Shown here one piece after another: positions 11,285 through 53,300 of a DNA stretch of 64,000 bases (the first letter of the stretch is position 1; the number at the start of each line of letters is the position of its first letter). The translations under genes were made by a program, and so were the position numbers. Below the pieces are notes generated by a model, which saw only the letters and a program-made list of their open reading frames with translations, searched no databases and was not told the DNA's origin. The stretch lies in NCBI GenBank assembly GCA_025677815.1, contig JAIXMP010000004.1, positions 124,001 through 188,000 of the forward strand. Reading direction: 5' to 3'. This stretch comes from Phascolomyces articulosus (taxonomy: Eukaryota; Mucoromycota; Mucoromycetes; Mucorales; Lichtheimiaceae).

Positions 11285-12276
11285 TTAAGCAAAAGCAAAT
11301 GCTTTGTTAGGATGATGATGATACCACATATCATTAGGGAATACGGCACCATTACCTATATCAGATTAAATAATAATATGAGCGAGAGATGTCTTATAAA
11401 AAAAATACACATTTACACTTTACCAGTATCTTGTGGTGCAGCCAAACGTGGACTATATCCACCATCATTTTTCTTTGCTGCCATAGCCATTGCTTTGCTT
11501 GGATGATGATGATAATACATATCATTCAATTGATTCACTCGCCCTATATTCATTAGGGAATTTATCTAATGTGTAAGTTCTCCATCCTCGCTCCTCACAT
11601 GGTTACAAGTATTTTTGATTCTTGTAATTTACCTTCACTATCATGCACTGAACTGCTACCACCAATATTATCTGCAGCCATTGCCATTGCTTTACTTGGA
11701 TGATGATGATAATACATATCATTCAACATATCTACACGTCCTACAGACCAGAAATTGTATCAAAATAGAACTGTTAGTATGTACAAATTCAAAGCGATTT
11801 GTAAATAAAGCTTTTTTTACGCTTACCTTCATCATCATGCCCACTATTCGCGTTATCCGCTGCCATGGCCATTGCCTTACTTGGGTGATGATGATAATAC
11901 ATATCATTTAAAAGATCCACTCGACCTATGTGTAATATCAATGTCGTTTTGAGTATTATTTATAGAGATTCTAGTCCAAATGATTTGCATTGAGTTGTTT
12001 TTTTTTCTGTTAGTATTCTTACCCTCATCATTTCCAGTATTGGCATTACCCGCGGCCATAGACATTGCTTTACTTGGATGGTGATGATAATACATGTCAT
12101 TCAAAAGATCTACTCGACCTATATTTACACCATGAAACGTTAGAATCAAATCATATAAACATAATGTATTATTCTATAGATATGTATATACCATCACTGT
12201 CATCGCCTTTTACTCGGCCAATAGCAGCAAAGCTCAAGAGTAACGGAATGGTTAATATAATCCAAAGATTCTTCAT
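11285..12276 (-). CDS. Secreted His-rich protein with five exon-encoded repeats (unrecognised)
   Basis: Six minus-strand exons: 12192-12276, 12023-12118, 11827-11925, 11633-11740, 11424-11543, 11285-11355. They give 192 residues. Exon 1 is a classic signal peptide (Lys-3, hydrophobic residues 4-19, then AIGRVKGDDSDG). Each later exon encodes one repeat with core NDMYYHHHPSKAMAMAA, opened by GRVD-L and closed by a variable Asn/Gly/Ser/Asp-Glu linker. Repeat lengths are 32, 33, 36, 40 and 23 residues. The last repeat is divergent (NDMWYHHHPNKAFAFA). All introns are phase 1, so any exon can be added or lost without frameshift. There are no cysteines. Only one dibasic site (KK, repeat 4) is present, so Kex2-type cutting between repeats is not obvious. 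The Tyr-Tyr-His3 clusters suggest binding of Cu, Ni or Zn, or tyrosine crosslinking; this is inference. I know no matching family. It is divergent from the TMEM94-like gene. Confidence 0.9.
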
Positions 12277-13016
12277 TGTAATGGTTTATTCTTTCAAATA
12301 ATGTATGCACTAAAAAAATAGAAATAGAGTAAAAAAAGAAGTTATCTGTTCTGTTTTTTTTCTTCTTCAAGGGAGATATAGAATGAAATGGGGTAAATTT
12401 CAATAGATTGTTCATGGGTTGAAACAAATTCCCTTTATATTCTACTCATTAAATCATTTTTATTGAGTTACATAGTAAAAGAATGGAGGAAGGGTCATCA
12501 TCATAGTACAAACCCATGAATCATCATACCCTTATTATTTTTTTTTCTATTGTAGATTGGGAATTAAATTGTATTGATTTAATTCTATGAGAAGGCGTCG
12601 TAAAGCATAGTAAGACTTATTTTTACTTTTGGATGTTCCTTAAATAAATATACTTATTCACAACAGACTGTTGTAACAGACATCATCTTATTGCTTTTTT
12701 TCTTTGAGTAGCATTTTATTTCTGTGTGCTTTTTTTACATGTCTTTTGGAATAAAAATAAATCCAATATTCTATATGATAACATTAATTGTCAGAATATA
12801 TAAAGTTAAAGTTATTGCTAATGAATCTGCCACAGCGATCGCAATCATGCTATATATACTTGTAATATTCCGGATCATTGGGGATCATGTTTGCTATAAT
12901 TAGGATGTAAACCACCTCAATTTTTTTCGCGGAGCTCGCAAACCCTCTTTCAATTACTTAACTCATACCTCGACACCCTAACTATTCCCTTTTAAACATT
13001 CCAGTTTTTTGCGCCT
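12277..13016. promoter_or_regulatory. Divergent intergenic promoter region
   Basis: 740 bp between the start codons of the minus-strand His-rich repeat gene and the plus-strand TMEM94-like gene. It therefore holds both promoters. It is AT-rich, with pyrimidine tracts 30-110 bp upstream of the TMEM94 start (around 12907-13005). No specific operator can be named. A shared control of a metal-binding peptide and a cation pump is conceivable but only speculation. Confidence 0.55.
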
Positions 13017-16000
13017 ATGACTGATGGTCCAGGCAGATCTGCTTCGGATACACACTTTTCACCGTCCACCATCTCTGATCAATCAGCCAATTCAACATCC
13101 TCACAAACACCATTAAACCGACACACCAACCATGAAGGGGAATCCAGCAACACGAATAACCAACGAGATTCACCCCATCCTGAAGAAAACACGACTTATT
13201 TTTTATTAGACATTAATGACGATGCCAATCTCACCATTGATACAGATACAAAGTCAGAACGACGTTCTCGACGTTCAGCAAAAAGTAGAAGAAGCAGAAG
13301 TAGTAGTAAAAGTACTAGCAGTAGTAGTTCTTCAGGCTCGAGTGTTTCAGCCCAAGTCGTCATCGATCATGGCAATTCATTACCGCGACGATTGGATAAA
13401 CGGATTGCACGTCGATTAGGACGGTCCGATAATGAAGAATCAGAAAGTGATTATGCTTATAGTTATACACCACGTCCGCAAACCACAGATGATCATGATG
13501 AACATATTACACATCCATGTTCAAGAGAAGATCAAGAGGTTCATGATGATCGATTGAAAACGCCAACAAAAAAACATCATCATCACCATCAACAACAAAC
13601 TGCTCATAGCATATCGGGTGATGGGAGTGGCACTGGTGCTGGTGTAGGTACTTCATCTTCTCATACCCATAGGGAAGATAATGATGATAGATCTATAAAC
13701 GAGGGGAAACCAAAAGGTTTAACGGTGTATACGGATGATGATGATGATTTAATGGAAGAGGTACCGAGTTGGAATCATGAACGCATTCGACGTCATACTG
13801 AGGATGAATCGCATGAAAATAGTCCTTATGATGGTGGTGATGAAGGTCGACCTCATCGTCATAATCATCAACGGAAACCAAGGAAACGAATTAATCGATT
13901 ACGTCAAGAAGAATTACAATCACATTCATGGAGTCGTCGGGAAAGTCAACAAAATGTTTGTCGATCGGGTTTACCAAGTGAAGAAGCTTTACAGTAATTT
14001 TCTTTCTTTCTTTAGTGTTTATATTTGATAAACCTTGTTCATTTTCTCTATTGAACAAATCTAATCATAATATATATATTAGCAAACTATTGTCTGTTGC
14101 AAATCAAATCTTAGATGATAAGCGAGCCCAAATTGCAAAGAAAATATGTAAGCTTTCTAAAACTTGATTTCTTAAAAATATTGGGTTGATGATCAAGAAA
14201 TATACCAAATTAACTTTTTTCGATTTGTCTTTTCATCTTTCTTAAATGACAGCTGTGACCGATTGGGTATCTCGTCCATGGACTCTTCTTGGTTTATTAA
14301 CCGGAATCGCATTATTGGTTTTTTATATTGCTGGCTATTTTCTAAGTGACCCATACCAATTTCGTTTGACAGGTGCACTTGTAGAAGCACTCCTTGTTTT
14401 GGCCATGGTAGCATGGAATGGTTATTTATATCATCGAGAACAAAAAATGACGTTATATGAAATGACCAATCGTGCAACAACAATTATTGAAGCATTGGAA
14501 AGGAGTGGCATGAATATGGTTCAGGTAAAAAAATAAATAAATCATACTTCAACAATGGAAAAAAAGGAAAGGAACTAGGAAACCGAATAAATCTTAACAA
14601 GAGTTAAATTTTAACCTCTTGCATTTTAATGGCATACAGGATACTCGAATACCATTTATTCCATCCATGTCAGTAGCAAGAGTTGTTCGTGACGGTGTTG
14701 TACGTATTTTCCCTGTTAATTTACTTGTAGAAGGCGATGTTGTCGAAATGCTTTATGGAGATGTAGCACCAGGAAGAATGAAATATTTTCACAAACCATC
14801 AGGATCAAGCAACAACAACATTAACATCAATATCACTTCACAGACTTCATCCTCCTCGTGTTCCATCCATACTGAGCAACATCAATATACCGACACTTCA
14901 TCCAAAGAAGAAGGATACCCATTAGAAACAAGAGAATATTATTTAGCCAAAGATCAAGTATTCAAACCTTCATTTTTCGGTATACCGCCACCCACAGGAC
15001 TTTTGGAAGAATATTTGGGAGCCCGTGGACGACATCAATTTATTTTATTAGAAACACCATTGGAAAAAAACATGCATGTGGCATTGACTCAAAAGCGACC
15101 TGATACTGTATTAACTGTGGAAGCAAGGATATTGGAGCGTCTCTTTTATCGTTATATTGTTTGGATTGTCATTGGTATTGAATTGATTATCAATTTGCTT
15201 CGATTTGGTCTCAGAGATAAATTGGTCAATGGGTTCTCCACAGATCAACTTTTGGAATTGATATCAGTCATCCCATTTTACTCGATTCTTCCCTTGCTAC
15301 CTTTTTGTTTACCCAGTTTATGGTTGGTCGCACGTAGTTTTGGAAATGCTCAATTGTTGATTCTGTTTGAAGCATTGCAAATATCCAAGACAGAGTATGA
15401 AGATGATGATGAAGTGGATGAATTTGATACAGAAGCACCACCACCAACCAAAGATGTCGAATTAAGCCCTAGTAAGATTTCCTCCATATTTTCCCCTTGC
15501 TTATTTTGAATGTACTTGTATAATTTTTGCTGACATGCAAATCATCTACTGCTGTTTGTTTTTAATTAGATGTTGTATGGGATCGATTTTGTTCGTTATT
15601 AATCAAATGGGATCGACTTTCATTAACAAGATCAACCAACTTACTTGAGTCACTTGGAAGTACCACAGTTATCTGCTCTTTGGACAGAGAAGGAACAATT
15701 GCCAATGTAAATATTACTAGGAAAATAGTAGAAAGAAACAGGTTATCTATTTTGCTAATCCATAGAATTATTATCTACAAATAGCCTTTTCCTACGGTAG
15801 AACAATTGATGTTTCCTGATAAAGAAGATATTCGTTATCTTGATGTACAAGATGATTCTGATGAAGAACTTGGGTTGAAATTTGAAGATAATGATTGGGA
15901 ACAATATCTTGCGTATGTATATAAAAAAAAAGAAAAAAGACTTAAAAGCCAGCTACATATAATATGGAAAATCTAACGGATGGGGTATATTTTTTTTTGC

Positions 16001-19000
16001 TTCCATAGCTCGTTAAAGCCAGTTGGATTGAACTTCATGTTGAATACAAATTGTGGTGTTCTTCAAGGGAGAAAACGATCGGAATACCATCGACGTCGTT
16101 CAAAATTACATGTTTATGGACGAACATCACCCGCTCGACAAAGTAAGTTGTATATTTTTTTTGTAGAATATAGCCCTAGGCGATGATATTTGGTTTGTCT
16201 AAATATCCAACGAATGATTTTTTTTTTTTGAATAGCATGCTTATGTCGACTTGGCAAATGTATTGGATTTAAAGAAGAAGCACTGAGCTCTTTTGCTTTG
16301 AGAGCAGAAATATATACATTTGCTCCTTATCATGATATTCTCAATGCAGCACGATATCAATATAGTCAATACTATCAATTTGAAGTGCCCAATGCATTAT
16401 CCACTGTATTTGAAGAAAGAACATCAGGTTTGTCTTGTAATTTGTTTTTCATGTATTAACAAATAAAGATAATACTAATAATATTCGACTTTAATACTTT
16501 ATAGGAAGCTATCAGCTCTTGACAGATGGCCATCCATCTCTTGTATTGGATAAATGTTCAGATTATTGGGATGGCAATGGTTTACAAACGATGTGTCATA
16601 CCGTAAGTTGAGTGAAAAAATTGCCAATAGAAAAGAAGCAAGAATCTCAGTTCTGGTAAAAAATGTATTTTTTTTATAGATGGAGAAAAAGATCAGTGAT
16701 TTTTTCCAAAATGCTATGGTTCATGATATGCAGTGTATTGCTTATGCGTATCGACCTATCAACACATCGCATGGCCATCGAATTCCTTTTTTGAATCCAG
16801 TAGATGATGATACAGAAGATCCTGGTTGTGCATTTGTCGTACTACCCTACAAACCTCCCAGTTCCGATAGTTCTAGTACCGATAACAGTAGCAGTAGCAG
16901 CGATAGTGAAGAATCCTCTTCTAACGCACTTTCACTTACTGTTCCTCAAATAACAGGTTCTCCATCCTTATCATTTACAGGTGTCCAATTATCCATGGAA
17001 AATGGTGAAAATGATGTAGAACCAGAAGAAACAATCATAGCTGAAGGTCCTTCATCCTCTAATGCTACCAAGAAGGGTGAAGAAAAACGGTCATCATCGT
17101 CAAAGGATACAGAAAGCACTTCGTCTTCGGATACAGATAGTACGAGTGATTATTCTTTTGAAGAAGATGTACCTGTCGATGAACAAGAGGAAGAAATGTT
17201 TTATAAAGAAGTTGTTAAAGGTCAAATTTTCCTTGGTATGACAGCCATGTGCCATCAACCGAAACAGGTAAGATAAAAAAAGACGGACACTTTTAGTTTA
17301 TTATATACTTCTGGTTATACTAATGATAAAAAAAAATATACAGAATGTTGTTGATTTTATTGAAGATTTAGGTTTGGCAGGTATTCGATTTGTCAACTTT
17401 TCTCCAACAGCAGAAAGGGAATCGAAAGGTAATTATAAAAATTGTTAGATCCTCTGTATAAATTGGATTAGTTTTACTAAAAGTATGGCCATTTTATATT
17501 AGCATTTGCTGAACGCTTAGGCCTTGAAACCGATTGGAATAGTTGCATATTACTCTCAAGTCCAGACGATGAAAATTGTGGCAACGGTTATCTTCAAACA
17601 CATGACATTAAAGCCCAACTTCCACGCGGTATTGATCAAATTCGTCGTCATCTTGAAGATGTGGATGATATTCCACTTCATGTTTCGTTATTTGCAGAAT
17701 GTACACCTGAAGCCATCAAGGAAATGATTCGTATCTTTCAAGAATATGGTGAAGTGGTGTGTTGTATTGGAAATGCATTAAATGCAAAGAATACTGAATC
17801 ATTCGCTTTGGTAAGAAACAAGATCAATCAGCGTTTCGAGGCTATATCTATTTATCAAAAAGAGAAACCGTGTGAAATGAAAACTTCTACTCATCTTTGT
17901 TTTGGGGTTGTAAAATATATAGGCGGATATGAGTATTGCCATGGAACCTATGCATACCCGGGCTCAAAGTAAAGGTCGATTATCGTTAAGTGGAAGACAA
18001 CCTCCTTTGGCTGTAGGGGCCTCTTTAGTAAGCTTACCTTGTGGACTCTTCATGCAGTATGAAACAAGTTTGTACGCCGTAACACAAATGATTCGAGATG
18101 CAAGAAGATTAATGAGCTGTATTAGAATGGTAACGTTTTCTTTTATAAATGAATGGATAAAAGGATTTGCCCATCGCTCATACTATAATAATATGCACAA
18201 TGATAGGGATTCGCATTCTATGTTGGTGCTTGTATGTCATTGACATTGATGCAAATTTTATGTTCATGCATGTTGTTGCCTTCTCCATTCACTGGTTACC
18301 AAATTTTATGGATCATGTGGATTATTTTACCTATTTTATCTTTATCAATGTTGTTTACCCCGCATGATGATAACATTATGCTTCTGATGCCTGGTGAGTT
18401 TTTTATTGGATGTAGATAACAGATATATAGAATGTCTTACTAATTTCTACCATCACAATAGGTAAAAACATTGAACATTTAACAGGCTTAGTTCGTTTTA
18501 TGGTCTACTTTTTATTACGTTATCTACCACTTATCATCATTTGTATCGTTATTTATGCCATGTAAGTTATTTAGGAGTAGCAACAACAGTTTTATTCAAA
18601 ACATATAAACTAACAAAAATATATAGGACACTTATTTATTCTCTTGGAATCCCTGCATCCCAAGCATTTGGTAGTTTTGGTAGCAAAGGATGGTTACATT
18701 GGTCGCGCGAAGAACAGTGGGCTGTTTTGTATGGTCAAAACTTTATGCTGATAGCATTTGTATGGTGCCTTGCTTTCATGTCTCCTTCATTTTTACATCG
18801 TACCTTTTCTCTTTACCATTCTATCCCATTCAAAAATAAGGTGTGGGTAGGTTCATTTTTTGTAGTGATTGCATTACAATTTGTTTTTTGTGCTATTTCA
18901 TTGGTCCATGGACCCTTTTCATTATCCACTATTCCATGGTATGTTTATTTCCTTGGATTTATTTGGCCCATCATTGCTTTACCTGTCCAAGAACTTGTCA

Positions 19001-19193
19001 AAATGCATGATGATAAAGAATTTACACGATTTCAAAAACGATCCAAGCTTGAGTTTAGTACAAAGGTAAAAAAAAAAGTCATTTTTTTGGGTAACAAGAT
19101 GCAAACAGAACAAATAGAACGTATCCAAAACTCATTATCAATTCATTATAACATCTATACCTTTCTTAGCTTGGTATGCATTCGCCCCTTTAA
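13017..19193 (+). CDS. TMEM94-like P5/P-type ATPase-related membrane protein
   Basis: Seventeen exons: 13017-13993, 14083-14147, 14253-14524, 14640-15471, 15570-15706, 15785-15912, 16009-16142, 16236-16427, 16505-16602, 16680-17267, 17344-17428, 17503-17810, 17923-18129, 18207-18393, 18462-18561, 18627-19065, 19170-19193. They code for 1590 residues. A charged Ser/His-rich N-terminus of about 325 residues precedes two membrane segments (around 355-400), an actuator-like region, a second membrane pair, cytosolic domains, and about six C-terminal membrane segments. The end KLGMHSPL and the segment GLAGIRFVNFSP resemble animal TMEM94 (ERMA), proposed as an ER magnesium pump. The catalytic aspartate is kept but its motif is degenerate (SLDREGTI, Asp about 754, instead of DKTGT). 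The usual GDGxND hinge reads GNALNAKN. Transport activity is therefore uncertain. The gene lies divergent to the His-rich repeat gene. Confidence 0.92.
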
Positions 19194-20652
19194 AAAAATT
19201 ACGGTTTACCTTACGTTACATTTTATTATTATTATTATTTTACATCATTATATATATATATAATCTAGTTTCTTAAACGCCAACTTTATACATCATTCTA
19301 TAATAATAAATAAAGAGACACTCACGCACGTTCGTTTTTACATAAAACTAATAAGTGATATGTATTGTCGGATGTTTCAAAAAAAAGTTGGAAATCCCAA
19401 CCAGTAAAATGAACTGGAAAAATTTGTCATCTATCTTTTTGTTTACGTGGACTAGACAACAAAAAGGAAATCTTTTGGAAAAAAAATGGTCTTGAATGAG
19501 ATCATCTATTCATCTTTTCTATGAATATTATTCTTATTAGAACATATTCTACTAAACAATTATCATGAATGAAAAGAGAGGTTCCTCTTGCCCTATTTTT
19601 ATGAAATGTTGAAAAGGGTTTTAAAAAAAAAAGACGAGCAAGTGATGAGCAATCGATCGGGTCATGATAAAAATGGGGTAGGTCAATCAAGGTTACACGA
19701 GGATACATGCAGTTGAAATAATGGTACACCGCACCTTTTTTGTGGGTTGCATGTTTTGAAATCGTAATCAATACAAAATAGCCTTCAAGTCCGCCAAACT
19801 TTCCAACAAGACTGTGTTTAACCAAGAAGGGGTTAATGGTGGGAAAATGCTGGGTTTATTACTTTATATGATTGATACAAGAAAAAATCTGGGGATAAAA
19901 ACATCATACCATACTTATCATCATTATCTAATACATGTATGAAATCCATCAATGGGAATGGAAAAAGCTGATTGATGACGAAAAAGAAGATAGTAGACAT
20001 AATTTGAATAAAAGGGAAGGTGGTGCAAAAATGCCTACGGAGCACTCCGGAGAAGAAATGGATTAAAGTTTTAGCTTGAAATGTTTTTGTAAAAGCAAAA
20101 CAAAGAAGTACAAGTTATATAAGAAATGTTCCATCCATATCAACATGATCCTTTTTATATGTAACAAAGACATGATTATCCCAACAATCTATCCATCAAT
20201 TCTCCATTAAACAATAAAATAAAATTGAAACCTAGAACGAAAGAAGAGAAGACTCGGTTTTCTATTTTGTGGTTTTATCTAAGTCCAGCTGGATAGGGCA
20301 ATAAGGCTATTCAAGATGAGTGAGTGGGTCATAATTAGTATAAGGCAATAACCTTTACCCCACACAACCAAACAAAAAAACCTGATGCACAGGTAAACAC
20401 ATTTTTGGTACACTTCTTTTATTGGTCAAAATCTTTTTTATCTGTGTTTCTTTTTTATCTCGTTTTACTTCCTTTTTTTTTCTTTCTTTCTTCTCTTTTT
20501 CTTCTTTCCCATTCTTTCCCGTTTTTTTATATAAATCTTTAATTGATAAAACAACCATTCAACTTCATTAATATATAAATAATACTATTTATTCTTTCAA
20601 TACATACTCTTATTTTTACAGCAACTTATTTTTTCTTCCAATATAAAACTTT
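19194..20652. other. Intergenic, no gene supported
   Basis: 1.46 kb between two plus-strand genes. Two minus-strand ORFs (19502-19825 and 19833-20045) together stay largely open and are less AT-rich than other spacers. Their translations (for example HKKGAVYHYFNCMYPRVTL) match nothing I recognise, and no convincing paired splice sites or conserved domain were found. A pyrimidine-rich stretch at 20410-20525 precedes the transcription factor gene. Confidence 0.5.
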
Positions 20653-42200: not shown

Positions 42201-43042
42201 CTTGAATGTAATACGTTGAAATTATAAATTTTTATTAAGGACGAAATTAAATGAGCACACGCTGATTTCAGCTTCTTGCTCTCGTCAGTTCACAAGGCTC
42301 AGTTCTGAAAAACCTGCAGGGCAGCAGGAAAAAGGTGTGGGTATACGACCGAAAATAAGGAGATACAGATCAAAGAGTTATATAAAGGAAGGGGATTACT
42401 AAGTTATATATAAAAGGTTGGGAGAAAAAGAAAACAGAGGGTAACTATTCTATGGGTGGTGGGAAACATTATGGAGCTAAAGGAAGAGGTATCAGGAAGT
42501 TTTTTTTTTTTTTTAATAGTTAAAAGAATAATATTATATAGATGCTGGTAATGTGGAGTGTTTCGCAGGCGGTTCGATCCACACGAGGAGCGCTCGTCCA
42601 AATTGGTCTACTGGTGGCAGTGGGGTGAGGTATTGCTCTGATCGGCATGTACGGTGCATTTGTGATAATATATAGCAAACCTTAGGCCATATTATATTGA
42701 GATAAGTACGTTTGGCAGATGAGGTCGGAGGTGATTTTGGTAATCGGTTAAGCACAAACGAGATTGGATCCTTAATATTAGTGGAGAAGGAGAGAAAGGA
42801 ATGGACATCAAGACATTTAATTAAATGATTTTTTGTTAAACGGGTCGGTTGATGACAGTTAGGGCATGCTTGTTGTTGATAATTATTGATCCATCCTAGT
42901 CGATAATGTATGCATAGAACACGTTCTTGTGGTGACATTGGTAGCCATAGAATTGGATCAATACCTAGTGTTCTTCGACAGGCATTAATAAGTACAGATT
43001 TTTTGCGTGCACATCGTTTTTCGTGAGTTCTTGAATGTAATA
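42201..43042 (-). mobile_element. 5'-truncated LINE retrotransposon with 13-bp target duplication
   Basis: Direct repeats CTTGAATGTAATA at 42201-42213 and 43030-43042 flank an 816-bp body (42214-43029). On the minus strand the body encodes the C-terminal end of a LINE ORF2: CRRTLGIDPILWLPMSPQER, LGWINNY, and the zinc-knuckle-like CPNCHQPTRLTKNHLIKCL (C-x2-C-x9-H-x3-C). The frame ends at about 42534. The 3' UTR has an internal A16 run (42501-42516) and a terminal TTAATAAAAATTTATAA. The reverse transcriptase and endonuclease domains are missing, so this copy is dead. It lies within the F-box relic. Confidence 0.88.
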
Positions 43043-43429
43043 CAGTGGTCCCCCACCTTTTGCAACAGTGGTAATTTCAACAATTTTGTGCAAAAATCAA
43101 GTAATTGCAAAAACCGAGGTATCTGGTATCTTAGTATTAACCATGCTGTTATGTGTTGTACTACCATAAACCTGTTGTACTATATCGTAAAGTAGATAAA
43201 GGCTTTTTGATTACACATGAAATTACTTCATTAAGCTGCAACAGATGTGATTTCACTCATTCTTTACAAAATAAGAGGTGAATTTACATCCGGTGGGACG
43301 CGGCGCTTGTAAATAATGATGCAAAATTCCAAATGTGCAAATTTTATAAGTATTTTTGGTAATTCTCACTAAATTGGTGCGGAAATCGTAGAGAATGCAA
43401 GTGGAGGTGCAAAAAGTGGGGGACCACTG
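43043..43429. mobile_element. 387-bp MITE with TA target duplication (Tc1/mariner-pogo type)
   Basis: The termini are inverted repeats: left CAGTGGTCCCCCACCTTTTG, right CAAAAAGTGGGGGACCACTG (23 bp with one or two mismatches). They are flanked by TA dinucleotides at 43041-43042 and 43430-43431. There is no transposase ORF. TA duplication and the CAGTGGTCCC terminus are typical of non-autonomous Tc1/mariner/pogo elements. It abuts exactly the outer end of the LINE's target duplication, so the two insertions are nested. Confidence 0.92.
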
Positions 43430-50313: not shown

Positions 50314-53300
50314 TTAACATTCAGCACAAATACCAGAAGCATTGGCACCAGCCAATGGACAATTATCGAAAGTGGCATAAGCACCCCAGTTAGCGGCACC
50401 GCCATTACCCCACCAATCGGGAGTATAACCGGATCCCATAACAACACCAAAGATGATTAAAGCGGAAATAGCAACACCAGAATCGAAAGCAGCGGATGTA
50501 ATGTAGTTGTACTTTGACCACCATTCGTGTCGGTATCGGCGAAGCCAAAACATGAAGACAAATCCAGCAGCACACCAGGCGGAAAAGTTTAAAGGTACAG
50601 CGGGAGGCATCATGCCGGTAGCGTTCAAAATCAAAGGAATATGAACAAATTTGAGCCATTCTACATGGGGCCATCTCTTATGGGCAAGCCAGAAGGGAAT
50701 AGGCAACAAGGCACCGAGCAAGAAGAACCAAAGCATTTGTTGGTAGATGGAACCAGGACCAAACATTCTTGCGGGACCAATGGTACCCCAAATAATGGAA
50801 GCAGAATAGAAAGTATGTGCAGAGGGACAAGTGAAGGGGTAACCTGCATCGGTACAGATATCAGGGACGGATTCCATCAACCAACGGGCAGTTGCCAAAT
50901 TGACGAGGCCACCTAATAAGGTACCTACCACCTGAACGTAAAACATGGCCTTGGGTGGAATTTTGGTATAATGGCCAAGTTTCAAATCGCTTACAAAGGT
51001 CAAAGCCTATAATATGATATTATAAATATAAGTTTTAGTATGTTATACTTTTTATTTTCAGGTATATATATATGCTAATTTGCTTACCTGGTACATGGAA
51101 ATGTAACCGTAGGTCTTGAAGCTGTTTTTTTTTTGTTTTAAAGAAGATATGAATGACCAGATTAATATATTATGTAATGATGATGTTGGTCAGTAATAAT
51201 GTATCATAAGCATACTATAATACTTACGTGACATTGGCAATAGGACGTCCGGGCAAAGCGAAACCAATGATAAACTCAGTAATGACATTCAAACCAGGTT
51301 GCTCTATTTAAATTGAATGAGTTAGATATATATCACAGATATAATAGAGACCAAGTAGTAAAAATCTAACTTACGGTTACTAAGAGCTTGAATAATACCA
51401 ATGGGTAAGACGAAAACACCAGCAAGACCCATAGCAAGGAACATACCCCACCATGGAAGCTGCATTTCTGGCCATCCGTACAAGACACCGAAAGAGACAC
51501 CGAAAGCAATGACGAAAAGAGACAAGTACCACCAATGAGGTACTTCAGGATAGACGCGCATAAGCTTGCCGTGAATATCCAAATCTTCATTACGAGACTT
51601 CTTGTATTGTTGAATAATATCCTTGCCATGGTACAAAGCAGTGTGGGTTAATACAGCAGTCAAACCAGCGAAGCCAATACCATAAGTAAAGCCAAAGAAG
51701 GCACTCATATACATGGGGCCATATTCTTCATAAGCAGTAACGTTCAACGTGTTTTCAGGTGTCAATACGACAGAATTATCCCATAATTCACCATCCTTGG
51801 TAAACAATGAAGAGGTAACAATAGGGAACTTTTGAGCATCCCAAACATTGGAATAGTAAAAGGCAGGACCAAGGATCCAAGCAACAATGACGAAACCAAC
51901 AGCAATATTAGCGATGCACCACCAGGGTACAACGAGAGGAGATAAAAGATATGATACAATAGTGGACCAGTCGAAGGATACAGCGAGAATACCGAGACCA
52001 CTGTAGCCGCCAGTGAGCTGAGCCAATATACGATTATCCTTGTTAATCCAGCATGCCCATGAAAAGAATGTCAAGATTTGGAAGAAGTAACCGGGTAACC
52101 AATAATATACCTATTATTTTATATATATAAATAACAAAAATTAAAATCCAAGATCGTAAGGGATGATATAAATCGAAAGATTAGAAATAAACTTACAAAC
52201 ATGCCAAGGAAGCAGTAAGAGAACCAACGAAGACGGGTGGGACCAGTCCACGATTCCCTAAAATATTTCATGTAAAGTTAATATTGTTTTGTGTTGTTGT
52301 ATAATATGCGTCGTTCGGGAAAAATTATATATAAAACTTACTTTTCAGGGATATGGAAGGTTCGGAAAAGAGAAATGTTAGCCAAATTGGTGGGCCAAAC
52401 CATGGATGGAGGATAAACTAAGAATTTACGGACAAGACCAGCCATACCGTAACCAATAAGCTATATAATAATAATTGTTGTTGTGAATACGTAAAAAATG
52501 TGTACATGTGGCTGAATTTTCTATGCATAATGACAATCATTTCAAATTCTTACCTGTGTGGTCCAAACGAGGAGTAAACCTGTGTGCATGGGAAGAATAA
52601 CAAGTTATTAGTTTCCGATAATTTATAGAATTAATCCATAGATATATATATAACTTACCACCACCCCATCCAATATCTTGCTTATACCAGAGTTTTTGAA
52701 TGGTAATGATATCAATAGCATAAGCAGTAGTATAACTACAATTGGCCATGACAGTGATCAAGACATGTTCCTTCATGTTGAAAGGACCAGGATTGAAAAA
52801 TCGGGATCTGGGGATAACCTTTTCCAACACCTTAGCGAAGGGATAACTGACCAATTGGATGATAAGCGGAGTAAGGGTCCTTTTTGGTTTTTTTTTTGAG
52901 AAAAAAAGAAGTGCACATGTTAAATCAATGGCTATCATCATTGAATAGAGCAGTCTGTTGTTATTTATATGAAATTAGATGACTTACATAGCATTCTTTC
53001 TGTACCAAAAGAATTGGTTCACAAATGAAAGAAGAGCACAAAAGATGAGGGCAAGTAACCACATACGGAATGTATACACAGGTAACGTTGGATCATCCGT
53101 ACTATAATAAAAATCATAATAGTAATGCTTTAGGCCTGATGACAATGATGGTGATGATGCATAGATGCATTTTTGTCGTAAAAATAGAAAAAGTAAAAAA
53201 TAAAAGAAGGCGGCTTACTTTGGCACTACCATTCGGACTTCTTCAATGGGAGAGTCCTCATCATCTTCGATGTGAGCATGAACTGGCTCAACATCATAAG

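Follow-up and report, generated by a model that had tools for sequence, protein, structure and literature searches.

A gene on the minus strand of the window (the whole stretch of DNA analysed, 64,000 nucleotides of the Phascolomyces articulosus genome) encodes, at 12276-11285, a protein in which five similar units follow a hydrophobic N-terminus, each unit on an exon of its own. This confirms the six-exon repeat structure noticed in a preliminary description. The best explanation, which we put forward tentatively, is that the product is a multicopy precursor of a short, aromatic and histidine-rich peptide, resembling the Kex2-processed repeat proteins of fungi but without the dibasic sites. 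The leading alternative is a chain that stays whole and binds metal at several sites, and a wall or matrix protein comes third. Metal chelation, tyrosine crosslinking and a peptide precursor had all been raised in the preliminary description as possible functions. For a probably secreted fungal repeat protein, both the exon design and the absence of the usual cut sites are unusual.

Exon-intron organization

The protein of 192 residues is obtained by joining six exons across five introns, as follows.

12192-12276, minus strand: exon 1, 85 nt; ATG, hydrophobic signal-peptide-like segment (residues 4-14) and GRVKGDDSDG stretch
12119-12191, minus strand: intron 1, phase 1, 73 nt; CTAAC 25 nt from the 3' end
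12023-12118, minus strand: exon 2, repeat unit 1, GRVDLLNDMYYHHHPSKAMSMAAGNANTGNDE, 96 nt
11926-12022, minus strand: intron 2, phase 1, 97 nt; its sole CTRAY motif lies near the donor
11827-11925, minus strand: exon 3, repeat unit 2, GRVDLLNDMYYHHHPSKAMAMAADNANSGHDDE, 99 nt
11741-11826, minus strand: intron 3, phase 1, 86 nt; CTAAC 37 nt from the 3' end
11633-11740, minus strand: exon 4, repeat unit 3, GRVDMLNDMYYHHHPSKAMAMAADNIGGSSSVHDSE, 108 nt
11544-11632, minus strand: intron 4, phase 1, 89 nt; CTAAT 13 nt from the 3' end
11424-11543, minus strand: exon 5, repeat unit 4, GRVNQLNDMYYHHHPSKAMAMAAKKNDGGYSPRLAAPQDT, 120 nt; carries the sole dibasic pair of the protein
11356-11423, minus strand: intron 5, phase 1, 68 nt; CTGAT 9 nt from the 3' end
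11285-11355, minus strand: exon 6, diverged repeat unit 5, 71 nt; GNGAVFPNDMWYHHHPNKAFAFA followed by the stop codon, no Arg at the start
12434-12439, minus strand: TATAAA, about 160 nt upstream of the ATG; a possible, weak promoter element

All five introns begin with GT, end with AG, are in phase 1 and measure 68-97 nt, in agreement with the earlier reading of six exons joined by phase-1 introns throughout. A branch-like CTRAY motif lies 9-37 nt from the 3' end in introns 1, 3, 4 and 5, and the GC content is 0.37-0.43 in the exons compared to 0.22-0.33 in the introns. The four internal exons (96, 99, 108 and 120 nt) are symmetrical, of phase 1-1, so that each of them could be skipped or duplicated with the frame kept; with phase 1 introns on both sides, they form an array of class 1-1 exon modules, and the fifth repeat exon is the terminal exon of the gene. 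The assignment of one repeat to each of five exons, also made previously, is borne out by a repeat finder blind to the gene model, which detects copies spaced at 185-197 bases, in a 103-nt family of four copies (the other three being 69-83% like the reference copy) and a 59-nt family of five copies (the other four being 64-78% like the reference copy).

At all five introns, the interrupted codon is one for Gly, divided as G|GN. The junction Gly of the Gly-Arg pair can be attributed to the splice consensus, which favors G at the exon end and G at the exon start; passages of PMC8001218 state that proto-splice sites get translated, which helps explain phase 1-1 modules and their border Gly. Gly-Arg had been placed at the start of every repeat, and it is indeed found in four of the five repeat exons, but unit 5 has Gly-Asn. 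Nor is this the only regular basic residue, as had been proposed, given that a Lys follows HHHP(S/N) in all five units. As a guide for cleavage, the role suggested for it, Gly-Arg is a weak processing signal: the Gly belongs to a split codon that matches the splice consensus, and the Arg is replaced in unit 5. A 12-base identity between the start of exon 6 (11331-11342) and the 3' end of intron 4 (11550-11561) may be due to chance or may be a trace of how unit 5 acquired its odd start.

Repeat units and properties of the protein

The N-terminus includes an 11-residue segment (residues 4-14) with a mean hydropathy of 2.66, compared to 0.70 or less in the windows that start after residue 23, and we infer that it is a signal peptide that would direct the protein into the secretory pathway. 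The protein contains no Cys and 17 His among its 192 residues and has an intact mass of about 19 kDa; cleavage behind residue 20 would give a pI near 6. The five units are built around NDM(Y/W)YHHHP(S/N)KA. In units 1-4, a block of 22 residues is conserved (R-V-x-x-L-N-D-M-Y-Y-H-H-H-P-S-K-A-M-x-M-A-A), and the blocks are separated by polar, mostly acidic spacers that differ in length and sequence. Twelve columns are invariant in all five units; three of these are His and one is the junction Gly, and Asn, Asp, Met, Tyr, Pro, Lys and Ala are represented as well. The core is not uniform, with unit 1 carrying the variant AMSMAA. Unit 5 reads NDMWYHHHPNKAFAFA followed by the stop codon, with no residues behind the core. 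It is the most diverged unit, but the replacements within its core are of a conservative type (Y to W, S to N, and F for both Met of M-x-M).

The HHH cluster is present in all five units, never with two or four His, and silent C/T changes occur in two of the five. Runs of CAT and ATG are common in this genome, so that HHH runs may arise easily; mere CAT slippage is nevertheless an unlikely source of these clusters, given the exact number of three His in each of the five and the silent changes in two. Every unit also has an aromatic pair, YY in four units and WY in one, M-x-M is found in units 1-4, and the Met of NDM is retained in all five.

The His and Met features would fit an intact protein that acts as a secreted, multivalent metal binder, with the five HHH clusters and the nearby Met holding Cu, Zn or Ni in buffering, uptake or defense, a possibility that we regard as real but doubtful. 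The maintenance of exactly three His in every unit, despite the common CAT runs, and the combination of His, M-x-M and NDM in a protein devoid of Cys would suit this role. Thioether ligands would, however, be unneeded in unit 5, where Phe replaces both Met of M-x-M, and the non-His residues of the core are kept as well as the His. The 742 bases upstream of the gene also contain no match to three of four types of metal-response motif, the single match being to a loose Ace1-like one.

A structural or surface protein of the spore or hyphal wall, in which the Tyr-Tyr-His clusters would be crosslinked or would coordinate metal and the number of units would set the length, appears unlikely. Tandem units with flexible-looking spacers and one aromatic pair each would fit such a protein, and the alternation of small and large residues in A-M-A-M-A or A-F-A-F-A could form strands; a single-sequence structure model, however, yields low-confidence helices and no strands (mean pLDDT 50.0). 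The array is also short, with five units in about 19 kDa, and no C-terminal anchor is apparent by eye. Tyrosinase gave no match in the genome, nor in the control genomes, so that this result does not establish its absence.

Constraint and age of the array

In pairwise comparisons of units 1-4 over 22 codons, 9-10 of the 66 bases differ, 6-9 of them at third codon positions, and 1-3 amino acids differ. Relative to the majority sequence, these units have accumulated 21 base changes, of which 4 alter an amino acid compared to 16.5 expected, and none of 100,000 simulations gave a value as low; the simulation takes the majority as the ancestor, uses a fixed transition weight of 2, disregards the order of duplication and covers units 1-4, with unit 5 left out. 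NG86 gives dN of 0.02-0.07 and dS of 0.82-2.67 among units 1-4, dS values that are rough given the 22 codons. In the core comparison of all ten pairs of units, pairs 1-2 and 2-5 yielded no dS estimate. For unit 5, over the 16-codon core, dN to the other units is 0.195-0.227 (0.195 to both unit 3 and unit 4), with dS of 0.35 to unit 4, 0.61 to unit 3 and 2.0 to unit 1. As judged from these sequence comparisons, units 1-4 are strongly constrained, and unit 5 is more diverged and less clearly so. When trimmed of their ends, all ten pairs of introns align no better than shuffled sequences (z from -0.80 to 0.64).

Given that silent sites are near saturation and units 1-4 are about equidistant, the array is an old one that can be explained without recent conversion; on the same grounds, silent divergence and equal distances, gene conversion and recent duplication of units 1-4 were rejected. 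Units 1-4 are old duplicates that purifying selection has kept alike. The exon duplication proposed in the preliminary description is thus supported, with five units, one per exon, of which units 1-4 are old copies, and the conversion that it had offered as an alternative is unnecessary. Selection on the coding units, likewise proposed there, is supported for units 1-4, with their deficit of amino acid changes and with introns that align no better than shuffles, and is less clear for unit 5. The close similarity of the repeats at the DNA level was overstated, in view of the 9-10 differences per 66 bases and the high dS.

It is hardly credible that the locus is a decaying repeat array that is still open by chance rather than a functional gene. 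No second copy was found and NG86 detects no clear constraint in unit 5, as decay would have it, but five intact pairs of splice sites in one phase, a frame with no stop and the strong deficiency of amino acid changes in units 1-4 all point the other way.

The spacers that follow the core, compared by eye, group units 1 and 2 (GNANTGNDE and DNANSGHDDE), and those of units 3 and 4 differ in length and sequence. Exon 1 contains, behind the hydrophobic segment, the stretch IGRVKGDDSDG. When its ATTGGCCGAGTA is aligned in frame with the acceptor and first bases of unit 1, 10 of 12 positions are identical. Shuffling of bases gave as good a match in 0.45% of cases and shuffling of codons in 0.47% (P 0.0045 and 0.0047), in a comparison made post hoc; at another offset, the best match was 6 of 12 (P 0.97 and 0.91). 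There is, accordingly, modest support for this stretch being the remnant of a sixth, gutted unit.

A candidate precursor of several peptide copies

Under the favored reading, several copies of one short aromatic and histidine-rich peptide would be set free from the precursor, which would work as fungal Kex2-processed repeat proteins or alpha-pheromone precursors do but by another cutting route, at single Arg or Lys residues or by an extracellular protease that attacks the spacers; once released, the peptide may bind a metal ion through its HHH cluster. The 12 invariant columns, many of them non-His, suggest sequence-specific recognition, and constraint on non-His residues is easier to reconcile with a defined peptide or a binding module than with a loose chelator. 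The alternation of a conserved block of clear limits with loose, polar spacers of variable length also speaks for a precursor. In multicopy precursors, the last copy often ends directly after the core, and unit 5, the last copy here, stops at precisely this point. Kexin is expected in most fungi, and kexin P-domain matches are present on two contigs of this genome.

Several observations count against a precursor. A single KK (residues 153-154), located in one of the four spacers, is the only dibasic pair, so that canonical Kex2 processing was ruled out for want of dibasic sites between units. Acidic residues and Gly precede the Arg that opens the units, and unit 5 lacks this Arg. Redundant copies need not each be as tightly constrained as units 1-4 are, and at unit 5 (dN 0.195 with dS of 0.61 and 0.35) strong constraint is not supported. 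A Ste13 signature of the alpha-pheromone type was considered and rejected: the sequence after the Lys is A-M-A-M-A-A (or A-M-S-M, or A-F-A-F-A), such that the XA dipeptides (MA-MA, FA-FA) begin one residue late and are out of register with the preceding Lys. No peptide-modifying gene was recognized among the ten open frames of the window that were scanned with Pfam.

Comparison with known repeat proteins and exon modules

Passages of two surveys of fungal secreted repeat proteins (PMC6339444, PMC7329392) define KEPs by the Kex2 sites, KR, RR or KK, that were sought between the repeats, and PMC7329392 reports, in the part relevant here, KEPs in 38 of 39 surveyed strains of Mucoromycota. The protein described here is like the KEPs, including the alpha-pheromone precursors, in being small, with a probable signal peptide, at least three similar units and variable spacers. 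A KEP has at least three near-identical repeats, and the present protein contains five units, of which four share a near-identical core. It lacks, however, KR, RR or KK between the repeats, with a dibasic pair in one spacer only, and it differs further in that every unit is encoded by a separate exon. Under the definition of PMC6339444 and PMC7329392, the gene falls outside the KEPs, although its product may function in a similar way, and PMC6339444 itself allows, in one passage, for unusual Kex2 sites in catalogues without hits. A precursor without Kex2 sites would presumably escape that survey rule, and short repeat exons may also be overlooked by gene finders. Nowhere in its main text does PMC6339444 use the words intron or exon, and the matches listed in our literature search include no fungal precedent of one repeat per exon, which is weak evidence.

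A Tyr-bearing repeated core behind a signal peptide, here a probable one, is also a feature of RiPP precursors of the dikaritin/ustiloxin type, from which the present protein differs in having no dibasic sites between units. UstYa (DUF3328) gave no match in this genome, nor in the control genomes. A di-histidine motif is described for two types of KEPs in a passage of PMC7329392.

The gene layout itself, in which an exon for a probable signal peptide precedes a tandem series of phase 1-1 exons whose junctions carry Gly, is that of the metazoan class 1-1 extracellular modules, and Gly at these positions is what the proto-splice-site argument of PMC8001218 would predict. The differences are that the organism is a fungus, that the unit is short, with no fold predicted with confidence, and that no match to it was found in another gene of its own genome. 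In the portion concerned, PMC8001218 poses the question why exon shuffling is limited to Metazoa and prefers class 1-1 modules; a probably secreted fungal protein with the same phase, the junction Gly and the same place after a signal peptide bears on exon duplication, if not on shuffling. One could go further and propose that this fungus independently evolved a metazoan-style signal-peptide exon with tandem phase 1-1 modules, and that alternative splicing or unequal crossing-over can vary the number of units in frame. Secreted isoforms would then carry between one and five copies of a His3 peptide of a new class, released without Kex2 sites; we consider this whole scenario improbable.

Schistosome micro-exon genes resemble this gene in that they encode small secreted proteins, probably secreted in the present case, on short exons whose lengths are usually divisible by three, according to passages of PMC10526429. 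Micro-exons there span 3-81 bp, and their introns range from 100 to almost 5000, compared to repeat exons of 71-120 nt (the internal ones 96-120 nt) and introns of 68-97 nt here, so that the gene has neither the exon sizes nor the long introns of that class.

Search for relatives

In searches of its own genome (47.4 Mb, 110 contigs), the 17-residue core matched four places, all within this locus, and the whole protein matched six, which are the six exons of the gene; these searches score the best candidates only, such that a distant paralogue could be missed. The pattern CAYCAYCAYCCNNNNAARGC (HHHPxKA) occurs at six places in the genome, five of them in this gene. The sixth (L031, C37) was considered as a paralogue and rejected, being a short stretch between stops with no repeat array, and was taken for a chance match. 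A broader pattern, TAYCAYCAYCAYCCN, with 177 matches in the genome, was uninformative because CAT runs are common there. For TAYCAYCAYCAYCC, the whole genome gave 177 matches, those of this gene included, compared to 33 for the reversed control.

No Pfam model reached the cut-off (best E 0.028, 15.2 bits compared to 27), no PDB chain was matched at E up to 10, and the five core strings have 0 occurrences in the literature searched, all of which is in line with the earlier statement that no described family could be recognized. Six pattern matches in viral contigs and 23 in bacterial and archaeal contigs include no relative by tblastn, a result from viral and prokaryotic collections that says nothing about fungi.

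Genomic neighborhood

On one side, the gene is flanked by a convergent gene for ribosomal protein uS19 (PF00203, E 1.9e-29) and, on the right, by a divergent gene that begins near 13019. We assume that the pieces starting at 13019 and a match to the C-terminal part of a cation ATPase at 18475-19263 (PF00689, E 7.9e-7) belong to one gene. This neighbor (13019-19263, plus strand), which may be a TMEM94-like relative of the P-type ATPases, contains polar low-complexity stretches, including HHHHHQQQ. A search for promoter motifs in the upstream 742 bases yielded nothing persuasive. Within 12411-12520, upstream of the gene, ACCCATGAA is seen by eye in both orientations, about 90 bases apart, and could be a regulatory site.

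The Pfam scan of ten of the open frames in the window gave a match for six. Open frame 42534-43076 (minus strand), which had no Pfam match, has a Cys/His-rich stretch that looks by eye like the end of a retrotransposon reverse-transcriptase frame. Matches to CotH are found in 22 stretches of this genome, as would suit a member of the Mucorales, but three bacterial or archaeal control genomes matched too. About 38 kb from the repeat gene, at 50314-52110 (minus strand), lies an OPT-family oligopeptide transporter (PF03169, E 3.3e-68 for 51322-52110), to which the piece 50314-51006 was joined by eye.
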